Shown one piece after another: positions 1,979 through 59,884 of a stretch of 64,000 bases of DNA (the first letter of the stretch is position 1; the number at the start of each line of letters is the position of its first letter). Under the pieces are notes generated by a model, which saw nothing but the letters and a program-made list of their open reading frames with translations, was not told the origin of the DNA and did not search any database. A program made the translations under genes and the position numbers. Source of the DNA: Algoriphagus resistens. Its GTDB lineage: Bacteria; Bacteroidota; Bacteroidia; Cytophagales; Cyclobacteriaceae. The stretch covers positions 62,001-126,000 of the forward strand of contig NZ_LMXN01000011.1 in the NCBI RefSeq assembly GCF_001442615.1. Reading direction: 5' to 3'.

Positions 1979-2267
1979 GTTTTTTTCTGAAAGTCTTTTA
2001 ATCACGGAGGTCTGGGATGGAGATATAGTCTAAAATAAATTCAGCCTGCTTACCGTAGGCCGTGTTCATCAGCTGCCGTTCATGGAGCCATGATCAGTAT
2101 TTCTATTTGATCGCTCTTTTTCAAGTGTTGATAATTGATTTTTAGTGGTAACCCCGAATAGTAGAGGCGGGCTCGAATCTCGCATGGTTTACAATCATCT
2201 CAGGCTATGATCCTCTAGGTACAAGATCATACTCGATTTCAAAAAGTCACCCTATGGGCTTCTTCCC
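1979..2267. other. Intergenic stretch with an orphan leader element
   Basis: With the terminator this is a 322-base gap between convergent genes. No open frame with coding character is seen. Its main content is the minus-strand leader-like element at 2119-2243. A short T-arm-like hairpin (2169-2185) is present but no tRNA can be folded around it. Confidence 0.6.
2119..2243 (-). repeat. Orphan copy (G) of the dispersed leader element
   Basis: Read on the minus strand it opens with TGAAATCGAGTATG, closes its palindrome with CATGCGAGATTC, and then after about 30 unrelated bases carries the tail AAAATCAATTATCAACAC ending at TTGAAAAA. The same tail, with ATG instead of TTG, precedes the genes at 30498 and 34418. 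Here the frame behind the tail stops after 14 codons, so no gene follows: either a decayed gene or an element that spread on its own. A short frame starting TTG-Lys-Ser-Ser-Met lies inside the palindrome, as in copy D. Confidence 0.6.
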
Positions 2268-30395: not shown

Positions 30396-30497
30396 ATGAA
30401 ATCGACACGATTAAAATCATCATTAATCCACACAGGGCAGTGATTATTTTAATCGTCAAAGATTCCATGTGACCATAAAAAAATCAATTATAAACAC
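30396..30497 (+). repeat. Dispersed leader element, copy A
   Basis: 102 bases ending exactly at the ATG of the barrel gene at 30498. Structure: outer helix ATGAAATC / GATTCCAT, inner helix of 17 pairs in 18 positions (ACGATTAAAATCATCATT with the complementary arm ending AATCGT), a loop with ACACAGGGC, then the A-rich tail CCATAAAAAAATCAATTATA. It differs from copy C (34316) at six positions only. It encodes a 15-residue peptide beginning MKSTRLKSSL and stopping within the 3' arm. Confidence 0.8.
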
Positions 30498-31439
30498 ATG
30501 AAAAAATACTTCAGGACGCTGATCCTGCTATGCGCAGGGTTGGGGCTGTCTTATCAATCCTTGGCACAAACTCCCACAGACGGGTTGATGATGCCAAAGG
30601 GGGATATCTGTTTCCTGCTCAATTTTGAGTATGGGCAATTTGATCATTATTGGGAGGGAGAGACCCTTCGGAAAAACGGAACGATAGCCAAGGTGCAGCG
30701 TAGAACGGCTATGGTAATGGCAGCCTATGGAATTACCAAGCGATTGGATGTGTATGCTGGGCTTCCTTACGTGAGTACCAATTCTACTACGCCAAATGGT
30801 GGAAAGTTTGCCGGAACTTCTGGGATCCAGGATCTGGCACTGGGGCTAAAGTATGAAGCCCTTCGCAAAAAAGGTGAAAAAGGTGAGTTGACTGTATTCG
30901 GTTCTGTGTTATTCTCAACGCCTGTATCCAATTATCTTTCAGATTATCAGCCGTATAGTTTGGGTATTGGTGCCCCTCAACTTGCGTGGCGAGCATTGGT
31001 AGAGTATGAGTGGAACTCTGGGGTGTATCTCCGAGGTCAAGCTGGCTACATCTGGAAAGGATATACTGAAGCTGAACGTGAATATTACTATAACGACGGA
31101 AGCTACTTCACATCATGGATGGATGTGCCCAGTGCCTGGACTTACGAAGCTGTAGTGGGTAAATGGTTTATGAATAAATCCTTTAGGGCAGAATTGAGCT
31201 ATAATTCTTCGAGATCTACCTCTGGTGATGACATTCGGGCATACAATGCGCCTCAGCCTACCAACAAAGTGGATATGGATCGTGTGGGAGTATTTGCACA
31301 ATATTTTTTCAACAAGCCAAAAGGATTGGGCGTGGTAGCATCTTATAGCCGTGTAATCCATGGCAGAAATGCTCCTGAGATGACAGCAATCAGTGCTGGA
31401 GTTACCTATCAATTCGGCCTTTTCTCTCCTAAAAATTGA
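30498..31439 (+). CDS. Outer-membrane beta-barrel protein (Phenol_MetA_deg-like)
   Basis: 313 residues, signal peptide ending YQSLAQ (residue 24). The rest is amphipathic beta strands with aromatic girdles (LDVYAGLPYVSTNS, GIQDLALGLKYE, VYLRGQAGYIWKGY) and a terminal strand ending in Phe (AISAGVTYQFGLF), as expected of an outer-membrane barrel. Pattern and length fit the transporter-like family known as Phenol_MetA_deg (MetA-pathway of phenol degradation), whose substrate is uncertain. It is four bases upstream of the haloperoxidase-like gene and begins directly behind leader copy A. Confidence 0.8.
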   Translation: MKKYFRTLILLCAGLGLSYQSLAQTPTDGLMMPKGDICFLLNFEYGQFDHYWEGETLRKNGTIAKVQRRTAMVMAAYGITKRLDVYAGLPYVSTNSTTPNGGKFAGTSGIQDLALGLKYEALRKKGEKGELTVFGSVLFSTPVSNYLSDYQPYSLGIGAPQLAWRALVEYEWNSGVYLRGQAGYIWKGYTEAEREYYYNDGSYFTSWMDVPSAWTYEAVVGKWFMNKSFRAELSYNSSRSTSGDDIRAYNAPQPTNKVDMDRVGVFAQYFFNKPKGLGVVASYSRVIHGRNAPEMTAISAGVTYQFGLFSPKN

Positions 31440-31443
31440 ACAA

Positions 31444-32985
31444 ATGAAAATACTTCGACTAATACTATTATCTCTGGTTACTGGAATTCTACTGGCAGCA
31501 TGTTCCATGGATTTGGAAACTGAACTGGAATATCAAAGCTATGAGTTTTCAGGAATAGATGAGAATGCAGGTACTTGGAAGCCGATTTTAATTTCCTCAG
31601 GAAGCCAACTTTCAATAGACACACCTTCGGGAGTAGAATCTGCTGAGTTTTTGGCTGAGGTCGAAAACGTGAAGTCTACCATAGCTTCTATGTCCGGTGA
31701 CCAACGGAAAAATGTAGATCATTGGACAAACAATGCGGTACTTCGTTGGAATGAAGTTGCACTTGGGCTGATAGCCAAGTATAATTTGATTCCGGGTCCA
31801 AACGAAGATGAATCCTATACGCTTCCTAGTCCAGCCAACCCGGCTGGTCCACCCGTGTTTCCTTTTGCGCATCCGCCTTATGCGAGTCGGGCCTTGGCAT
31901 ACCTTTCTGTAGCCCAATACGATGGATTGATTGCAGCATGGCATTATAAATTCCAGTTTAAAAGACCTGCACCTTATCAGGTTGATTTGGATATTCCCCA
32001 TGCGTATGTAGCTAATAATTTGCCTTCATATCCTTCTGAAGGAGCGGTTTTAGCTACAGTTTCCAGAAAAATATTAACTGCGATGTTTCCTTTGGAGGCA
32101 GACTACTTGAAAGAGTTGGAAGAGCAGCATCTGGAAAGCTTGATTTTGGCTGGAGAAAATGTGCCAAGCGACTTAGAAGCAGGAAAAAAGATAGGGGAGG
32201 AAATAGCAGGGATTGCTCTCGCAAGAGCAGCTGATGACGGGATGAAATATGCCCAGTCTCCTAAGGCAGTTTCAGATTCCCTGAGAGCAGCGGCATTTGA
32301 AAGATTTGGATGGCAGTGGGAAAATCTCGAAAGTCCGGTTCGTCCGGTTGGATTGACCCCGCTTTTTGGACAGGTGAAAATGTGGAGCGTCCCAAATGTG
32401 GAAGATACCCGGCCTGTGGTTCCACCGGCTCTGGATTCGGATGCATTTAAGAAAGATGTAAAGATCTTACAGGATTATGCAGATAATGTCACGCATGAAC
32501 GAAGAAGGATCGCCAATTTCTGGCAAGACGGTCTTGGTACCTACACTCCTCCGGGACACTGGAATGATATCGCAGGGGAATTTATCCTCAAATACAAGCT
32601 TAATTCTATACGGACTGCCCGCGTCTTTGCCTACATGAATATGGCGATCATGGACGGTGGGATCAGCTGCTGGGATGCCAAGTACTACTATTACTACCCT
32701 CGACCCATCCAGCTGATCAAGGATTTTGAGACGATTGCGGGCACGCCAAATTTCCCAAGCTATACATCTGGACATTCTGTTTTCTCCGCAGCTGCAGCGG
32801 AGGTATTAACTTATGTATTTCCTCAGGAAGGAACACTCTTTCAAGACTGGGCGGAAGAAGCAGCTATCTCCAGGGTTTATGGAGGAATCCATTGGACTTT
32901 TGATGCGACAGTAGGAACCACCCAAGGAAGGGATGTAGCCCAATACACAATTGATGTCGCCAAAATGGACGGCGCAGATAATTAA
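31444..32985 (+). CDS. Vanadium haloperoxidase / PAP2-family lipoprotein
   Basis: 513 residues from the ATG at 31444, four bases after the barrel gene; it starts a lipoprotein signal (LLAAC, Cys20). The C-terminal bundle has the full vanadate/phosphate pocket: Lys413 ... Arg420-Pro421 (KYYYYYPRP), Ser442-Gly443-His444 in SYTSGHS, and Arg477 ... His483 in SRVYGGIHW, with the spacings of vanadium chloroperoxidase. The N-terminal half has a parallel but broken motif: KRP at 173-175 and LPSYPSEGAVLA at 193-204, Glu-Gly where Gly-His is expected. Either halide oxidation with peroxide or phosphate-ester hydrolysis is possible; motifs do not decide. Membrane-anchored, outside the cytosol. Confidence 0.85.
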   Translation: MKILRLILLSLVTGILLAACSMDLETELEYQSYEFSGIDENAGTWKPILISSGSQLSIDTPSGVESAEFLAEVENVKSTIASMSGDQRKNVDHWTNNAVLRWNEVALGLIAKYNLIPGPNEDESYTLPSPANPAGPPVFPFAHPPYASRALAYLSVAQYDGLIAAWHYKFQFKRPAPYQVDLDIPHAYVANNLPSYPSEGAVLATVSRKILTAMFPLEADYLKELEEQHLESLILAGENVPSDLEAGKKIGEEIAGIALARAADDGMKYAQSPKAVSDSLRAAAFERFGWQWENLESPVRPVGLTPLFGQVKMWSVPNVEDTRPVVPPALDSDAFKKDVKILQDYADNVTHERRRIANFWQDGLGTYTPPGHWNDIAGEFILKYKLNSIRTARVFAYMNMAIMDGGISCWDAKYYYYYPRPIQLIKDFETIAGTPNFPSYTSGHSVFSAAAAEVLTYVFPQEGTLFQDWAEEAAISRVYGGIHWTFDATVGTTQGRDVAQYTIDVAKMDGADN

Positions 32986-33002
32986 TATCGAAACACTAAA
33001 CA

Positions 33003-33054
33003 CATGAAATCATCAAAGATTCCATGTGACAATAAAAAATCAAATTATAATCGT
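33003..33054 (+). repeat. Dispersed leader element, shortened copy B
   Basis: CATGAAATC, 6 bases, GATTCCATG and then the tail GACAATAAAAAATC..., ending at the ATG of the gene at 33055. The outer helix (one A-C mismatch) and tail of copies A and C are kept, while the long inner arms are gone. Its MKS frame runs without a stop straight into the next gene. Confidence 0.7.
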
Positions 33055-34161
33055 ATGCAAAATTATACCAAAATACTAGTGTTAGCTATCGCGATGTCTT
33101 TAGCTTATCTAAATACTTACGCACAAGGCTGCGTGGCAATCAGACAATTCTCTGGCCTCGGGAATGCTGTAGGTCAGGGAAATATTCTCAATCAGGGTGA
33201 ATGGAACGTCAGTGCCAACTACCGCTATTTCAAATCATTTAGACACTTTGGGGGAACGGAGGAACACCCCAATCGGGTAGAACAGGGCACCGAAGTGATC
33301 AATAAGCAGCATGGTCTGGATATCAATATCAGCTATGCCTTTTCGGAGCGGCTTTACGGAATCGTATCTCTTCCTTTTCAATACAATGAACGTAGTTCCC
33401 TGTATGAACATAATCGGACTGATAGACATACTACTTATTCCAAAGGATTCGGAGACATGCGGATCGGAGCTGGATACTGGCTGCTTTCAGGTGAAAAAGC
33501 CAAAAAAGGAAATACAGCAATTGGGCTTGGAGTCAAATTCCCAACTGGTGATTATGCCGCCACTAGTACCTTCTATAGAGGGGATGAAGGAACACCTACT
33601 GAAATGACTGTCGATCAATCTATTCAGTTGGGAGATGGAGGTACTGGCCTGATCGTGGATTTCCAGGGGCTCTGGAATGTAGGAGGGACTTTCTTCTGGT
33701 ATTATGATGGGTTTTATATGTTCAACCCCAAAGAAACGAATGGAACTCCTACCAATAGAAGCCGTCCTAACGAAGCAATCATGAGTGTTCCGGATCAGTT
33801 TGCCCTGAGAACTGGGGTTTTTAAGTCATTTGAAAAAATCCACGGGCTAGGCGTTTCCCTTGGTGGAAGAATTGAAGGGATTCCTGTCCGTGACGCTTTT
33901 GGCGGAAGTGAAGGGTTTAGAAGACCTGGCTACATTATTTCTGTAGAGCCAGGGGTAAGCTATATGCTGGGAAATGTGACAGGAACCCTGAATGTTCCTA
34001 TAGCTTTATTAAGAAACAGGACTCAAAGTGTAACAGACATTGAAAATTCCACGCCTGACAAGGTGGTTCATGGTGATGCGGCCTTTGCTGATTACCTGAT
34101 CAATTTCACAGTAGCAGTGAGGATTCCAAAGAAAGCTAAAGAGGTATTTAATTCACTTTAA
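33055..34161 (+). CDS. Outer-membrane beta-barrel protein, unknown substrate
   Basis: 368 residues from the ATG at 33055, which begins a clean signal peptide (MQNYTKILVLAIAMSLAYL... ending NTYAQ). The in-frame ATG at 33004 belongs to the leader element and would add 17 residues in front of the signal, so it is rejected. The mature part is beta-barrel-like (LDINISYAFSERLYGIVSLP, TAIGLGVKFPTGDYA, SVEPGVSYMLGNVTGTLNVP) and similar in style to the barrel at 30498. Follows the haloperoxidase gene by 69 bases and ends at a terminator, closing a three-gene unit. Confidence 0.8.
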   Translation: MQNYTKILVLAIAMSLAYLNTYAQGCVAIRQFSGLGNAVGQGNILNQGEWNVSANYRYFKSFRHFGGTEEHPNRVEQGTEVINKQHGLDINISYAFSERLYGIVSLPFQYNERSSLYEHNRTDRHTTYSKGFGDMRIGAGYWLLSGEKAKKGNTAIGLGVKFPTGDYAATSTFYRGDEGTPTEMTVDQSIQLGDGGTGLIVDFQGLWNVGGTFFWYYDGFYMFNPKETNGTPTNRSRPNEAIMSVPDQFALRTGVFKSFEKIHGLGVSLGGRIEGIPVRDAFGGSEGFRRPGYIISVEPGVSYMLGNVTGTLNVPIALLRNRTQSVTDIENSTPDKVVHGDAAFADYLINFTVAVRIPKKAKEVFNSL

Positions 34162-34168
34162 TCTTACT

Positions 34169-34202
34169 AACCCCAAAAGCAGCATTGCCTTTGGGGTTTT
34201 GT
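34169..34202 (+). terminator. Terminator after the barrel gene
   Basis: AACCCCAAA, 12-base loop, TTTGGGGTT, then TTTT. Confidence 0.9.
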
Positions 34203-34315
34203 TCTTTTATGCCCAGTGCCAATTTCCTTTAAGATGGATTTCCCATAGTTCACTGGGATTTTGTGCCATACCTAGGAAGATACCCGAGTTCACCACCCTC
34301 TAAATAACTAGTCCT

Positions 34316-34417
34316 ATGAAATCGACACGATTAAAATCATCATTAAAATACACAGGGCAATGATTATTTTAATCGTCAAAGATTCCATGTGGCCATAAAA
34401 AAATCAATTATAAACTC
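34316..34417 (+). repeat. Dispersed leader element, copy C
   Basis: 102 bases ending at the ATG of the DUF3179 gene (34418). Six differences from copy A. The inner stem is 17 of 18 pairs, the outer helix ATGAAATC / GATTCCAT and the tail GGCCATAAAAAAATCAATTA are kept. It encodes a 15-residue peptide beginning MKSTRLKSSL and stopping at 34361-34363. Confidence 0.8.
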
Positions 34418-35566
34418 ATGAAAATCTTGTTTTACTTTGGTTTAGGCTTTTTGCTGGTGTTTGAATTTCTGAAAATTTATTTCATCATGCCCTTTCCGGG
34501 CAGCCAGCAATGGGATAGCATTGATTTCGCCTACTTCCTGCATCGCTACAAAGCTGTGTTTTGGACGGTCGCTTTGATTTTGACAGGCATTGGCTTCAAA
34601 CCGGCCATATTAGGTTCAAAAAAATGGATTCCCTTCGGTTGCCTTATTTTGACTGTAGGTCTGATCGGTTTCTTCAATTTCAAAATGGCAGCGGATGCGA
34701 TGTTCAAAGAGCCGGAATCGCTAACCTTTGAAACTAAGGACGAATTTACAGGAAGTGATAGTATGCTCGTTGTGGTTACTGGTGATGAATTTGTCTCCAA
34801 AGCTTATCCTGTCCGCTATCTGGTATATCATCATCAGGTAAGGGATGTTATCGGCAGTGATCCGGTAATGGTCACTTATTGCAGTGTCTGTCGGACGGGT
34901 AGGGTCTTTTCTCCCTATATCAATGGCAAAGAAGAGTCTTTCAGATTAGTAGGGATGGACTATTTCAATGCGATGTTTGAAGACTCCCAGACAGGTAGCT
35001 GGTGGCAGCAAGCAACAGGGGAGGCTATTGCCGGACCCCTTAAAGGGCAAAAGCTAGAAGAGTTGGAGGCGTTGCAGATGAGTGCCTACACGTTTTTCCG
35101 TTCCTATCCCAATGGATTGATTATGGAGCCTGACCCAGCTTTCCTTTCCAGCTATGACTCTCTTGGAAAATACGAGCTTGGAAAAAGCGAGAGTAAGCTT
35201 ACCGGTACCGACCCTTTTTCGTGGAATGAAAAGTCCTGGGTGATCGGTATCATCCTGGATGGGAAATCCAAAGCGTATGACTGGAATGCGTTGAAGGAAA
35301 AACGGATCATTCACGATGAAATAGGAGGAGAGTCAATCGTGCTTTTGCTTTCCAGTGATTCACAGAGTTTTGTGGTTTTCAAGCGAAGAGCAACCGATTT
35401 CTTTACATGGAAAAACGACATCCTGACCTCAGATCTTGGGGAAACTTACTCCTATACCGGAAAATCCCAAGATCTCAATTATCCCGACCTTGAGCGGGTT
35501 CCTGCATACCAGGAGTTCTGGCACAGCTGGAGAACCTTCAGACCAAATTCAACAAAATACCCATAA
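34418..35566 (+). CDS. DUF3179 membrane protein
   Basis: 382 residues. Three N-terminal helices (about 1-25, 46-64, 70-90) anchor a DUF3179 domain: YLVYHHQVRDVIG, the CxxC-containing VTYCSVCRTGRVFSP, a Trp-rich SGSWWQQATGEAIAGP-like stretch (TGSWWQQATGEAIAGP), and WVIGIILDGKSKAYDW. The function of DUF3179 is not established. It is the first gene of a run of six (34418-41282) that also holds three CxxC proteins of the AhpD fold, a TonB-dependent receptor and an MFS transporter. Confidence 0.85.
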   Translation: MKILFYFGLGFLLVFEFLKIYFIMPFPGSQQWDSIDFAYFLHRYKAVFWTVALILTGIGFKPAILGSKKWIPFGCLILTVGLIGFFNFKMAADAMFKEPESLTFETKDEFTGSDSMLVVVTGDEFVSKAYPVRYLVYHHQVRDVIGSDPVMVTYCSVCRTGRVFSPYINGKEESFRLVGMDYFNAMFEDSQTGSWWQQATGEAIAGPLKGQKLEELEALQMSAYTFFRSYPNGLIMEPDPAFLSSYDSLGKYELGKSESKLTGTDPFSWNEKSWVIGIILDGKSKAYDWNALKEKRIIHDEIGGESIVLLLSSDSQSFVVFKRRATDFFTWKNDILTSDLGETYSYTGKSQDLNYPDLERVPAYQEFWHSWRTFRPNSTKYP

Positions 35567-35584
35567 TAATAGACCAAAATAACC

Positions 35585-36166
35585 ATGCCCCATATTGATT
35601 TAGAAGAACATCTACCCGGAATCACCAGCCTTTTGGAGTATCGCAGAGATTCCGCTGAACCAATCAGAAACCTGACTCAACTCCTGATGCGGGGAGCTTC
35701 CACGCTGACGGAAGGGGAACGGGAACTGATAGCGACTGTGGTTTCTCATGGAAACCAATGTCGCTTTTGCACCGCAGCTCATGCCTCAGTGACCAATAGT
35801 CTATTGGGAGAATGCGAAACAGTCGAAGCAATAAAGCAGGATATCGAAACAGCCCCCGTTACGGAGAAAATGAAAGCACTGCTTTCGATTGCCTCACTGG
35901 TTCAAAAAAGCGGTAAGTTGGTGACCTCTGAGTCAGTTGGCCGTGCCAAAAGTGCGGGAGCTACAGATCTTGAAATACATGATACGGTACTGATCGCAGC
36001 GCTTTTTTCTCTGTACAACAGGTATGTGGACGGTCTTGCGACCAACATGCCAAAGGACGAATCGTACTTCAAAAATCTGACTGAGCGTCTGACTACACAG
36101 GGATATAGAAGAAACCCTGGAGGCTACGATCATTTGAAAGAAGTTGTAAACCTCGATAAGCCATGA
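35585..36166 (+). CDS. AhpD-like / carboxymuconolactone decarboxylase family protein (1 of 3)
   Basis: 193 residues, all-helical CMD fold. The redox site is intact: Glu in GERELIATVVSH, then CRFCTAAH (CxxCxxxH). These residues in AhpD form the proton relay and disulfide that act in peroxide or thiol reduction; true carboxymuconolactone decarboxylases lack the CxxC, so a peroxidase-related role is more likely than ring cleavage. Shares the opening HIDLEEHLPGI and the closing EIHDTVLIAALFSLYNRYVDG with the two copies at 40178 and 40734. Overlaps the TonB receptor start by four bases (ATGA). Confidence 0.88.
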   Translation: MPHIDLEEHLPGITSLLEYRRDSAEPIRNLTQLLMRGASTLTEGERELIATVVSHGNQCRFCTAAHASVTNSLLGECETVEAIKQDIETAPVTEKMKALLSIASLVQKSGKLVTSESVGRAKSAGATDLEIHDTVLIAALFSLYNRYVDGLATNMPKDESYFKNLTERLTTQGYRRNPGGYDHLKEVVNLDKP

Positions 36167-43082: not shown

Positions 43083-44765
43083 TTATTTGATTTGGTCTCC
43101 CACCGTCAATACCTGCCCATCTTTTAACAATTGGGTCTTCAGATTTTCATAGGGAAGATCTTGGACACTGGTTCCGTTTTCTAATGCCATCACTGCCGCA
43201 GTAGCTCCGGATTGTCCCAAGATCATGAACACAGGTTCCATCCGGATCGAACCAAATGCATTATGACTTGCGGAAACTGCTACAGGAACGACGAGATTTG
43301 TGATTTCCTCTTTTTTGGGAACAATGGAACCATAGGCTATCTCGTAGGGACCAGGCAATCCAACTCCTATATCCCCTTCATTTTGGACATGCCCATTTTC
43401 ATCTATAAAGCGCTGAATATTATGGGAATCAATGGTGTATGATCCCATGCCCACTGACTCTGGGGTAGGTTTTTTCTGAAGCAATTCGTTTTCTGTCATT
43501 ACGTATTTGCCGATCATCCTTCTCGCTTCCCTTACATAGATTTGATGTGGCCAGTTGCCATTATCAATAAATTCATCCTTCGCCAATCCCCATTTCTGAA
43601 ATTCTTCCTGGGTTTCTTTAGGCACTCTAGGATCATTTGCCACAAAGTAAAGCAGCCCTTTCTGATAGTTTTCATGCTCTTTGATGATCTCTTTTCTTCG
43701 CTCATAACTAGCCTCTGGATATTCATAGTTCATTCCAATATTGTCAGAGCTAAAAGGGCCATGGTTGTTTGTGTCTGTTTTCCTGTTGGGGATCATATCG
43801 AATTTATCAAACCATTCCCTCCAGCCTGCATCGAAGATTCGTACCAAGAGCTCGTACTGGGTGGAATCGTAATTGTCGGGTTTTGGAAAAGGAACCCTGT
43901 TGTCTGGATGATTGGACATGCAGGTTCTGAAGCAATATGCTTGGATTTTATTGTCACCTTCTCCCTTCACTCCCGGGTCTTCTGCACTAATTTTTGGGAT
44001 GAGTCCAGAGGATGGGTCGCCGGGAATCCAGTACGGATCAATAGGGTTGTCCAGGACCTGGAAATGGTGGCGGTGGTGATAAACACCGGTTTGGATACCA
44101 TTCCATTCCTCATTATATACACTGGTTGCTTCCCTTCCTACATGATAACTCACCCCGGCTGCGGCCATCAGGTCACCTTCATACGTAGCATCGATAAACA
44201 TTCTACCCTTGAATTCCTTTCCGTTCAATGTCCTGATGGCAGTAATCTTTCCATCTTCCACAGTTACCCCTGCGTCCCTGTCCAACCACTCGTCGCGATA
44301 AAGTTCTATTCCCATTTCCTTTATCCATTCGTCAAAAACTTCCTCTGCGACGTGTGGCTCAAAGATCCACATCGTCCGCTGATCTCCGTCTATAGCCGGT
44401 GTACCCTGGCCTTTGTTTCCAAAATCAGACGGGTCTTCCCATTTCCACGCGCCTTCTTGCTGGTACTTATTGTATACCCGTTGGTAAAATTCGCGGGAAA
44501 GCCCACCGATCACCTCCTTTTTACCGGTGTCAGTCCAGCCCAATCCACCCGAAGAGAGCCCTCCCAAATGCGTATCCGGTGATATGAGTAGAACGGATTT
44601 CCCCATTTTCTTGGCTTGGATTGCTGCTGTAATTGCCCCTGAAGTCCCTCCGTATACAATCACGTCGGTTATGTTTTCCTGTTTTTCTCTTGGGCTGCAG
44701 GATACTAAAGCATGGATTGCCAAAAAAGATAAGATGCAGAATTTAATGCTGTCTATGATTTTCAT
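43083..44765 (-). CDS. Exported FAD-dependent oxidoreductase, lipoprotein (1 of 2)
   Basis: 560 residues. Lipoprotein signal with lipobox LVSC (Cys23). FAD-binding Rossmann start DVIVYGGTSGAITAAI, then LLISPDTHLGGLSSGGLG; the middle [24 protein letters not shown] and the end [35 protein letters not shown] are typical of the FAD_oxidored (PF12831) group. Substrate unknown. Close paralogue of the next gene upstream. Export by Sec would require FAD to be bound outside the cytoplasm, since no twin-Arg motif is seen. Its leader is element copy D, so it may also be transcribed separately from the SusCD operon. Confidence 0.9.
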   Translation of the reverse strand: MKIIDSIKFCILSFLAIHALVSCSPREKQENITDVIVYGGTSGAITAAIQAKKMGKSVLLISPDTHLGGLSSGGLGWTDTGKKEVIGGLSREFYQRVYNKYQQEGAWKWEDPSDFGNKGQGTPAIDGDQRTMWIFEPHVAEEVFDEWIKEMGIELYRDEWLDRDAGVTVEDGKITAIRTLNGKEFKGRMFIDATYEGDLMAAAGVSYHVGREATSVYNEEWNGIQTGVYHHRHHFQVLDNPIDPYWIPGDPSSGLIPKISAEDPGVKGEGDNKIQAYCFRTCMSNHPDNRVPFPKPDNYDSTQYELLVRIFDAGWREWFDKFDMIPNRKTDTNNHGPFSSDNIGMNYEYPEASYERRKEIIKEHENYQKGLLYFVANDPRVPKETQEEFQKWGLAKDEFIDNGNWPHQIYVREARRMIGKYVMTENELLQKKPTPESVGMGSYTIDSHNIQRFIDENGHVQNEGDIGVGLPGPYEIAYGSIVPKKEEITNLVVPVAVSASHNAFGSIRMEPVFMILGQSGATAAVMALENGTSVQDLPYENLKTQLLKDGQVLTVGDQIK

Positions 44766-44855
44766 GTGTTTATAATTGTTTTTAAGGCCATATGGAATCT
44801 CGCACGGCGTATAATCATTCCTCTGTGTGTTGCGTGCAACATGCTCGATTTCATG
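44766..44855 (-). repeat. Dispersed leader element, copy D, with overlapping small frame
   Basis: On the minus strand: CATGAAATCGAGCATG, a 12-base inner palindrome GTTGCACGCAAC's region, CACACAGAGG, AATGATTATACG, GTGCGAGATTCCATATGG, then CCTTAAAAACAATTATAA and the start at 44765. It keeps both outer arms and tail of copies A and C while the inner arms differ. The small frame opening MKSSMLHATH is 30 codons here, runs through the whole element, and stops at a TGA that overlaps the FAD gene's ATG (ATGA), as in translationally coupled genes. Confidence 0.7.
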
Positions 44856-57975: not shown

Positions 57976-58830
57976 ATGATTTTAATCGCAGATAGTGGGT
58001 CTAGTAAAACTGACTGGAGAGTTATTCATTCAGATCGCAGGATAAGTCAGCACCGCGGTATTGGGTTTAATCCCTATTACCAGACTTCTGAGGAAATGGC
58101 GATTCAGATGCAGGATGACGTCCTGATTAACTTGGCCAGTGAAATAGAAGAAGTATTTTTCTATGGTGCAGGGTGCTCCTCTCCTGATAGAAAGCATGAG
58201 GTCTCATCTGCTCTTCAGACTGTTTTTCCAAAAGCTATAATCACAGTTGATCATGATCTCACTGCAGCGGCCAAGTCCACCTGTGGTCACCAGCCGGGAA
58301 TTGCCTGTATTTTGGGCACCGGATCAAATAGTTGTGATTATGATGGAAAGGTAATTATAGACACCCGCCCTGCTCCGGGTTATATTTTCGGAGATGAGGG
58401 AGGTGGAGGCTATGTGGGCAGAAAGCTTTTGAAAGATTTTATCAATGATGAAATGCCTGAGGAGATCAAAAAAGAGCTGATTGAAAGTTTTCATCTCACT
58501 GCTATTTCCATCCAGGAGCATGTGTATCAGAAACCTTTTCCGAATCGGTACATGGCCAGCTTCTGTAGATTTATCACCGAGCACAAATCCGTTCCTTATT
58601 GCTATATGCTCTACTACAATTCCTTTCAGGAGTTCTTCAAGCAGCATGTGATGAAATACAAGGATTACACGGAGAAGCCTGTGAATTTCGTGGGCTCTAT
58701 CGCATATTACAACAGTGATATCCTTCGCAAAGCTGCCTCAGATGTGCAGATTAATGTAAATCTAATAATTGAAAGCCCGATTGCAGGCTTGACACTTTAC
58801 CACAAAGAAGAATTAGAGAATAGAGCCTGA
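57976..58830 (+). CDS. BadF/BadG-type sugar kinase, probable MurNAc kinase
   Basis: 284 residues, ASKHA fold. Phosphate loop MILIADSGSSKTDWRV, second loop CILGTGSNSCDYDG, and GDEGGGGYVGRKLL; the closing segment is VGSIAYYNSDILRKAA. In Bacteroidota this family phosphorylates amino sugars. With murQ next door the likely substrate is N-acetylmuramic acid (the MurK role described for Tannerella forsythia); GlcNAc is the alternative. Start codon directly abuts the previous stop. Confidence 0.85.
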   Translation: MILIADSGSSKTDWRVIHSDRRISQHRGIGFNPYYQTSEEMAIQMQDDVLINLASEIEEVFFYGAGCSSPDRKHEVSSALQTVFPKAIITVDHDLTAAAKSTCGHQPGIACILGTGSNSCDYDGKVIIDTRPAPGYIFGDEGGGGYVGRKLLKDFINDEMPEEIKKELIESFHLTAISIQEHVYQKPFPNRYMASFCRFITEHKSVPYCYMLYYNSFQEFFKQHVMKYKDYTEKPVNFVGSIAYYNSDILRKAASDVQINVNLIIESPIAGLTLYHKEELENRA

Positions 58831-58911
58831 TCCCGTGCCTACTGGATCACACTGGGATGATTACAAATCCTGCGAGATTCCATATGGCCTTTAAAAGTCA
58901 AATTGTAATCA
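58831..58911 (+). repeat. Orphan leader element, copy E
   Basis: Begins right after the kinase stop codon. GATGATTACAAATCCTGC, then GAGATTCCATATGGCC (as in copy D) and the tail TTTAAAAGTCAAATTGTAAT, which is close to that of copy B. Where the other copies have the start codon this one has ATA and stop codons follow, so no gene is led by it; murQ starts 161 bases further on. Confidence 0.55.
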
Positions 58912-59008
58912 TATAAATTAAAAAGCCGCCGTTCGTATCATCACGGATGGCAAGTGTTATATCCAAATTTCGGTTTGTGGGACGCAAACCTAGGCAAAGC
59001 AGAAAACA

Positions 59009-59071
59009 GAGCATGATCAGCATCTGTTAGCAGACAGGTGCAAGATACCGTGACCTTTAAAAAATTACACA
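59009..59071 (+). repeat. Divergent leader element, copy F, before murQ
   Basis: GAGCATGATCAGCATCTG ... CAGACAGGTGCAAGATACC, then GTGACCTTTAAAAAATTAC and the murQ ATG. It shares the order GAGCATG / ACAGG / GATxCC / GACC / A-rich tail with copies A and D, but similarity is low. Confidence 0.4.
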
Positions 59072-59884
59072 ATGAAAGTAACTGAAAGTACCTCCCATTA
59101 TGACAATTTGGAGCAAATGAATTTGTTGGATTTGCTCTATAATATCAATAAGGAAGATAAGAAAGTACCGCTTGCTGTAGAAAAGGTGATTCCGAAAATC
59201 AGTGAATTGGTAGACCATATCGTACCACGGATGGAAAAAGGAGGTAGACTGATTTATATCGGGGCTGGCACCAGCGGCAGGCTTGGCGTATTGGATGCTT
59301 CCGAATGCCCACCTACGTATGGAGTTCCATTCGATATGGTCTTAGGGCTTATAGCAGGAGGGGATAAAGCGATCAGAAAGGCTGTGGAGAATGCCGAAGA
59401 TGATCCTGATCAGGCATGGAAGGATATTTTGGAATATGGATTCAATGATCAGGATACCGTTATCGGGATTGCAGCATCCGGAACCACTCCTTATGTCATC
59501 GGAGGGGTTAAAACTGCGAGAGCAAATGGACTTTTAACTGGAAGCATTACCTGTAATCCAGACTCTCCACTTTCAAAGGAAGTGGCTCATCCAATAGAAG
59601 CAGTAGTTGGGCCTGAGTTTATCACGGGAAGTACACGAATGAAATCCGGCACAGCGCAGAAGCTTATCCTCAATATGATATCCACCACTGTGATGATCAA
59701 ACTTGGAAAGGTGAAAGGTAATAAAATGGTAGATATGCAGCTTTCGAATGCCAAGTTGGTGCAGCGTGGTACCAAGATGATTATGGAGGCTACGGGGCTT
59801 GATGCGGAGAAAGCCAAAGGGCTTTTGCTTAGTGAAGGATCTGTTCGAAAAGCCACCGAATATTTTTATAAAAACCAAAAGTAA
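59072..59884 (+). CDS. murQ: N-acetylmuramic acid 6-phosphate etherase
   Basis: 270 residues, SIS fold: LIYIGAGTSGRLGVLDASECPPTYG, IAASGTTPYVIGG and the family mark GPEFITGSTRMKSGTAQKL. Cleaves the lactyl ether of MurNAc-6-P to GlcNAc-6-P and D-lactate during peptidoglycan recycling or scavenging. About 30 residues shorter than the E. coli enzyme at the C-terminus. Pairs with the kinase gene upstream. Confidence 0.96.
   Translation: MKVTESTSHYDNLEQMNLLDLLYNINKEDKKVPLAVEKVIPKISELVDHIVPRMEKGGRLIYIGAGTSGRLGVLDASECPPTYGVPFDMVLGLIAGGDKAIRKAVENAEDDPDQAWKDILEYGFNDQDTVIGIAASGTTPYVIGGVKTARANGLLTGSITCNPDSPLSKEVAHPIEAVVGPEFITGSTRMKSGTAQKLILNMISTTVMIKLGKVKGNKMVDMQLSNAKLVQRGTKMIMEATGLDAEKAKGLLLSEGSVRKATEYFYKNQK

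Follow-up and report, generated by a model that had tools for sequence, protein, structure and literature searches.

The Algoriphagus resistens genome contains a family of short, structured units that insert directly 3' of an ATG, rarely of another triplet, in the hexamer ATG|AAA without duplicating target bases, and whose own 3' end recreates ATG|AAA. We analyzed this family from a 64-kb window (C3:62001-126000, the whole stretch of DNA under study) of the 6.13-Mb, 43-contig source genome (G000), in which an earlier note based on the sequence alone had described palindromic leaders that stop before the start codons of unrelated genes, and had left two readings: a mobile palindrome or a regulatory RNA shared by a regulon. 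The units have the anatomy of a non-autonomous, structured mobile element of the Cyclobacteriaceae, a reading to which we assign a probability of roughly 0.85. Presence or absence at orthologous genes with precise junctions, the unrelated nature of the led genes, and recent near-identical copies all favor the mobile palindrome.

Orthologues of 26 genes led by units were located in six genomes of the same genus, and stretches surrounding many of these genes were compared in five of the six (G015 excepted). In 73 of 82 gene-by-genome comparisons, no element was called within 130 bases upstream of the start, a count that is an upper bound because decayed units can escape detection (g21 in G019 looks like one). 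Upstream flanks were alignable above shuffles in 31 of these 73 comparisons, and by our count from the listing, homology reached to 10 bases or fewer from the junction on both sides in 22 of these 31 (11 genes). Some relatives carry units at the same start, e.g., g15, g18, g20, g27, and g38 in G019. At g27, the empty relative G021 reads GTG|AAATATATA and the filled G019 reads GTG|AAATCGAG...ATG|AAATATATA; thus, the gene's former start codon is the GTG on the left, and the ATG on the right arrived with the element. At g17, which we take to be rlmN-like, relatives read ATGGAAGCAATTCAG|AAAAAAGAC, and G000 reads ...CAG|AAACCAAG...ATG|AAAAAGGAC; the empty site is CAG|AAAAAA, the insertion lies within the gene, a few codons from its start, and brings in a new ATG. 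The target at g18 is ATG|AATAAT. Based on the g27 and g17 junctions, the element extends from AAATCG to CAn'ATG, i.e., AAATCGAG...CAn'ATG, and no target bases are duplicated. The ATG that had been placed just outside the element is therefore its own 3' end, and its 5' end follows the left ATG.

The same boundaries recur in a wider set of 306 distinct units drawn from many genomes. Of 214 units that stand first in their array, 183 have ATG as the left triplet; 293 of 306 units start with AAATCG or AAATCA, and 287 of 296 have AAA directly after the 3' ATG. Arrays would then grow by re-insertion at the recreated ATG|AAA site. Tandem arrays, the ATG|AAA target hexamer, and the ATG as part of the element had not been reported in the earlier note.

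Copy A of the window gave 55 matches in G000 at E≤1, of which 30 cover 100 or more of the 111 bases in the query, so that the window copies are not a chance occurrence; a type-2 unit (see below) gave at least 63 matches, with the best 40 of 204 first-look candidates scored. The family is dispersed, and neither outcome that the earlier note had named as refuting, a lack of further copies or a recent duplication of one locus, was borne out. In 45 G000 stretches (206 kb), mostly picked because they match, we counted 103 units in 58 arrays (25 single, 24 double, 6 triple, and 3 quadruple), so that 33 of the 58 arrays are tandem with 2 to 4 detected units; arrays of up to 5 detected units occur in the named genomes. 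Within arrays, units are arranged head to tail. Unit length is mostly 92 to 102 bases, with a commoner type 2 of ~92 bases and a type-1 variant of ~102 bases that includes copies A and C, and the compact unit is laid out as AAATCGAG, a variable hairpin, CACACnGGGATGATTAT, CATGCGAGATTC, CATnTG, an A-rich tail, and CAn'ATG. Some recognized units (L004 after 1605, L027 after 1781, and the first array of L311) are followed by units of a third type that has diverged (ATGAAATACCCATGACGGG...; in L004, with ACACAGGGGGATGATTATTACT); because the profile largely misses this type, the array counts are lower bounds. Among the 19 of 58 G000 arrays without a long open reading frame (ORF), some precede a unit missed by the profile and some end at an ATGAAA with an early stop.

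A covariance model of the element had matches in at least 73 of 148 Cyclobacteriaceae genomes and at least 47 of 84 genera, with up to 28 candidates per genome scored. The named records with matches belong to the Cyclobacteriaceae, and the genera among the matches listed in a pattern scan are Algoriphagus, Lunatibacter, Cyclobacterium, Pleomorphovibrio, Mongoliibacter, Aquiflexum, and Belliella. In a DNA search, 13 of 38 genomes were positive, all of them among the 24 of the same genus, and none of the 14 from other families was positive; plasmid and phage collections gave no match. A pattern match in a "Chloroflexi" metagenome-assembled genome (L254) had no profile match and was rejected. Nearest-copy identity, computed on units in fetched loci rather than on whole genomes, had a median of 0.989 in G106 (54 units, 21 with an identical copy) and 0.947 in G000 (84 units, 6 with an identical copy); G014 has 126 model matches, and the 38 units examined there are all old, with a best nearest-copy identity of 0.821. 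These data support recent movement in two of the three genomes examined, G106 and G000. A search of the open-licence PMC literature found no description of the element, which is weak evidence of absence.

Among 95 type-2 units of 92 to 97 bases, the top five covarying pairs comprise a small hairpin and one long-range pair, the fifth-ranked pair joining n of GATTC-CATnTG to n' of the 3' end CAn'ATG. Both compact motifs are held by 230 of 296 units (of the 66 left out, 40 exceed 105 bases and contain nested hairpins), and in these 230 units, n and n' are Watson-Crick partners in 197 (2000 shuffles: mean, 76.5; maximum, 104). Collapsing near-copies to one per hairpin signature left 147 of 174 paired, and the pairing was found in internal units (57 of 71) as well as in terminal ones (140 of 159). 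In 34 diverse units, the three helices have 91.8, 74.3, and 96.1% of their cells paired, and total pairing drops from 89.3% to 7 to 44% when the helix partners are slid. At the left junction, ATG-AAATC is also complementary to the GATTC-CAT segment, apart from one A.C mismatch that is constant and lies at the junction itself. Copies A (z, -4.83) and C (z, -2.75) fold better on their own than shuffled sequences, whereas D (z, +1.09) and B (z, +0.42) do not; the structural support for type 2 is the covariation. We also observed that longer units (L208, L209, L255, L279, L290, and others) contain extra G+C-rich hairpins of the forms CCCGA..TCGGG and CCTGCC..GGCAGG, placed near GAGATTC or after ATCGAGC and often splitting or replacing the CAT guide; these are perhaps other palindromic elements nested inside.

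The IS200/IS605 family is not known to duplicate its target, and the present element likewise leaves a motif on its left, duplicates no target bases, and inserts in one orientation. IS608 is reported to insert 3' of a retained motif, its guides pairing with both cleavage sites (PMC5934647), and free-standing IS605 stem loops are described for Borrelia (PMC2775950). The element resembles this family (IS608 and small derivatives such as PATEs and free-standing stem loops) in 3' insertion at a short left-retained motif, structured ends, and, putatively, guide pairing. It differs in that the target is ATG|AAA rather than TTAC, that one triplet forms both the left and the right motif, which allows arrays to form, that a single guide could serve both sides, that the right end is a start codon, and that no cognate tnpA sharing its ends was found and no cargo was seen. 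By analogy, the internal CAT would act as a guide for two successive pairings, one with the target ATG and one with the 3' end of the element itself, and a single-stranded form, DNA or RNA, would be cut and joined at both sites by an enzyme supplied in trans, on the guide and cleavage-site logic of IS200/IS605. We lean towards the guide step taken alone. The complete scheme is offered tentatively, as less likely than not: the element would target start codons through nucleic-acid pairing, with one CAT guide reading both the target and the element's own 3' ATG, hand the gene a new start codon, depend on an enzyme outside the known Y1 and REP-associated tyrosine transposase (RAYT) groups, and rewrite the leaders of many unrelated genes family-wide with an AUG-burying helix that alters translation. 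We do not claim membership in IS200/IS605; the mechanism is inferred from anatomy.

Several observations weigh against the mobile-element reading with its guide step or limit its support. No enzyme could be linked to the element in searches for Y1, RAYT, and reverse transcriptase proteins (recombinases were not searched for). No unit lies near any of the five Y1 matches in G000, and four of the five are of the IS200/IS605 type as checked; a comparison of the Y1 content of G000, which has recent copies, with that of G014, whose examined units are all old, identified no Y1 group that tracks activity, G014 having no PF01797 match and three weak RAYT-model matches. Neither an excised form nor movement itself was observed, and in 9 of the 31 alignable comparisons, homology stops more than 10 bases short of the junction. 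As to pairing, n and n' are Watson-Crick partners in just 20 of 39 longer units on a crude reading, which speaks against a strict need for pairing and slightly lowers the odds of the complete scheme. P2 is paired in 74% of cells, the 34-unit helix alignment was chosen partly by the same motif, so that motif constancy is partly selection, and letter shuffles ignore the relatedness of units. The CAT itself is near-constant, and its match to the target ATG is therefore complementarity, too invariant for covariation. Finally, the IS608 guide lies 5' of its hairpin, whereas the CAT lies 3' of the main hairpin.

Two kinds of candidate for an autonomous copy were considered and rejected. Weak Y1 matches beside units in G106 turned out to reflect units inserted in the reading frame of RAYT pseudogene copies: among 20 regions with weak Y1 matches, three contain units, of which three units are in the RAYT reading frame (L398 and L399) and two are elsewhere (L399 and L401). 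For cargo-bearing copies, ~2.0 Mb of overlapping loci were scanned, and 55 right halves lacked a type-2 left half; on visual inspection, most of these are type-1 or diverged units, one is probably a chance match, two at locus ends cannot be judged, and none of the 55 forms a pair with a distant left half that would enclose a gene. We note that the two RAYT pseudogene copies, L398 and L399, carry different units at the same internal ATG|AAA, and that one of them has an extra unit at CAGG|AAATGCCC, a site that is empty in the other. In L228 (G009), a unit is inserted antisense at the 3' end of an IS200-like tnpA (~1943 to 2029); among the 29 tnpA loci of the genus that were fetched out of a longer list of Y1 loci, it alone carries a unit.

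A doubtful possibility, though one that predicts several of the same features, is an integron-like or other tyrosine or serine recombinase system in which the unit, in circular form, undergoes conservative recombination with ATGAAA sites by way of a short common core. The shared TGAAA core, the directionality, the tandem arrays, and the lack of duplication would also be expected from such a system; however, none is linked to the element (no recombinase family having been searched for), a core of ~3 to 5 bases is short, and duplex recombination does not need conserved pairing of the element's own end.

The element is unlikely to be a REP-type repeat, i.e., a palindrome spread by a RAYT (TnpA-REP). 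Both are palindromic, present in high copy, and found in gene-flanking DNA, the RAYT model has a match at E≤0.001 in all 20 genomes searched (above the cut-off in 13), and units lie inside RAYT pseudogene copies in G106. In G000, however, recent copies coexist with a single weak RAYT-model match (7.4e-4) that falls on an IS200/IS605 tnpA, and the three units within RAYT frames are insertions. According to PMC8266576 and PMC3733652, REPs and BIMEs with RAYT share with the element the high copy number, the tandem groups, and a proposed mobilization in trans. REPs measure 20 to 50 bases and are mostly GTAG-tagged, whereas the element has ~92 bases or more, one orientation, and precise ATG boundaries; the unit alignment contains no GTAG or CGTC tag and no 20-to-50-base palindrome. 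The element also resembles other short repeats. Classical miniature inverted-repeat transposable elements (MITEs) have terminal inverted repeats and target duplications; neither was seen here, as judged by eye for the ends in the unit alignment and from the junctions for duplications. Pneumococcal BOX elements consist of modular repeated units upstream of genes, as here, and we know of none that lies at a start codon with an ATG of its own. According to PMC2759123 and PMC10969869, enterobacterial RU sequences and MITEs are, like this element, short non-autonomous mobile repeats between or within genes.

The regulatory reading of the earlier note, that of a conserved, riboswitch-like RNA leader, fares poorly. 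In such a leader, CAT would pair with the upstream AUGAAAUC or with the AUG of the gene and so switch translation of a regulon; in line with this, the start codon lies within the covarying 3' helix, the predicted fold of copy A pairs its AUG, and the two helices are mutually exclusive. We nevertheless consider it very unlikely, given the precise insertion and the orthologous starts without a called element, the unrelated led genes, arrays of up to five detected units, pairing retained in internal units that precede no gene, and the same anatomy before ATGs without a long ORF. The window has no Rfam match at gathering thresholds, and six loci searched at E up to 1 gave two sub-threshold Rfam matches only, both outside units. 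Least credible of all is a retro-element spreading via RNA by reverse transcription: units at gene starts could be transcribed as leaders and copies A and C fold well as RNA, yet G000 has no match to the reverse transcriptase family PF00078 (present in 12 of 16 genomes searched) despite its recent identical copies, and the ends are precise at the junctions examined, without target duplication.

The association with start codons appears to follow mainly from the target. In G000, 39 of 58 arrays terminate at an ATG that opens an ORF of 80 aa or more, and among 80 listed loci of the named genomes, 61 of 92 non-edge arrays do so (7 edge cases set aside). As a null, 177 kb of G000 hold 70 ATGAAA sites outside coding sequence, of which 37 are starts according to simple ORF-based gene calls, and a further 179 inside it. 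Relative to this null, the excess is not significant (one-sided p=0.07 for G000 and 0.06 for the named genomes), and we rejected recognition of start codons beyond the hexamer; relative to a TGAAA-only null (46/184), the excess in G000 is large (p=9e-9). In single-unit arrays, the left triplet is ATG in 25 of 33 before short-ORF ATGs and in 84 of 92 at long ORFs. The ATGAAA hexamer together with loss of insertions inside genes would thus explain most of the pattern: insertions fall on start codons largely because genes commonly begin with ATGAAA, and since the element ends with its own ATG, a gene struck at its start codon retains an ATG before codon 2. Coupling to an upstream ORF was rejected as a general feature, as the frame of the left ATG stays open through to the end in just 98 of 296 units; in the 95-base form (left ATG through 3' ATG), this frame ends in a TGA that overlaps the new ATG.

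In the window, the family profile detected six copies (at 30397, 33009, 34317, 44854 minus, 58821, and 2241 minus; Table 1), with a best E value of 1.8e-22 and a weakest of 3.2e-6; one further match (E=0.17) was taken as chance, and the reversed window had no profile match at E≤1. The earlier note gave positions for four of these. A (30396-30497) and C (34316-34417) are indeed both 102 bases long with six differences and an ATG directly adjoining each, RNA folding gave 17 pairs and one mismatch in the inner stem for which 17 of 18 paired positions had been claimed, and the shortened B (33004-33054) and D (44854-44766, minus strand) lie where they had been placed. The led genes are unrelated, as had been stated. 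D had been taken for a copy of A with a replaced arm and instead belongs to the type-2 subfamily.

Table 1. Units of the element and a possible decayed unit in the 64-kb window
Feature	Type	Coordinates	Strand	Left triplet	3' end and downstream gene
Unit A	1	30399..30500	+	target ATG 30396-30398	AAATCG...CACATG; 3' ATG 30498-30500 opens a 313-aa ORF, 30498-31439 (no Pfam match at E≤0.001)
Unit B	1, inner stem deleted	33007..33057	+	ATG 33004-33006	3' ATG 33055-33057 opens a 368-aa ORF (no Pfam match at E≤0.001)
Unit C	1	34319..34420	+	ATG 34316-34318	3' ATG 34418-34420 starts a DUF3179 protein
Unit D	2	44763..44851	-	ATG 44854-44852	3' ATG 44765-44763 starts an FAD-dependent oxidoreductase (PF12831)
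Unit E	2, diverged	58821..58914	+		3' end CATATA
Possible decayed tail of a second unit		59038..59074	+		weak, E=0.54 for 59038-59064
Unit F	diverged	2125..2241	-		ends CACTTG|AAA; no long ORF start within 120 bases downstream

The sites of units C and D are empty in the G019 orthologues, with flanks aligning to 3 bases from the junction for C and right up to it for D, and for the unit B gene, neither the G021 nor the G019 orthologue had a called element. The 3' end of unit C is mutated to CTCATG, which breaks the CATGTG/CACATG pairing. The possible decayed tail directly precedes ATG 59072 of a SIS-domain (murQ-like) gene. The suggestion that murQ might be led by a copy is plausible in so far as this gene and one in another Algoriphagus (L307), which a full unit leads, have matching starts (MKVTESTSHYDNLEQM...), and weak for the stretch in the window itself. 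The inner stem is wholly lost, with outer helix and tail kept, in two copies (window 33004-33057 and L214 at ~7387). Separately, three 86-base stretches of the window (35957, 40553, and 41109; 70 and 74% identity to the first) fall inside ORFs at 35585, 40010, and 40734, which are probably paralogous genes.

Start-codon assignment calls for caution in annotation, since several ATGs lie within each unit ahead of the true start. Because the 3' helix contains the new AUG of the gene, lower translation of led genes is a fair prediction, and the predicted fold of copy A shows the AUG buried. If the single-guide model is true, the target might be re-programmed via the guide, as is reported for IS608 (PMC5934647). 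A parasite that has a start codon as its 3' end and targets a sequence common at gene starts escapes the main cost of insertion, gene breakage. The element shows a route for mobile DNA to replace 5' leaders genome-wide, including those of housekeeping-type genes, presumably rlmN, pth, rsgA, and bshA as we read their sequences.

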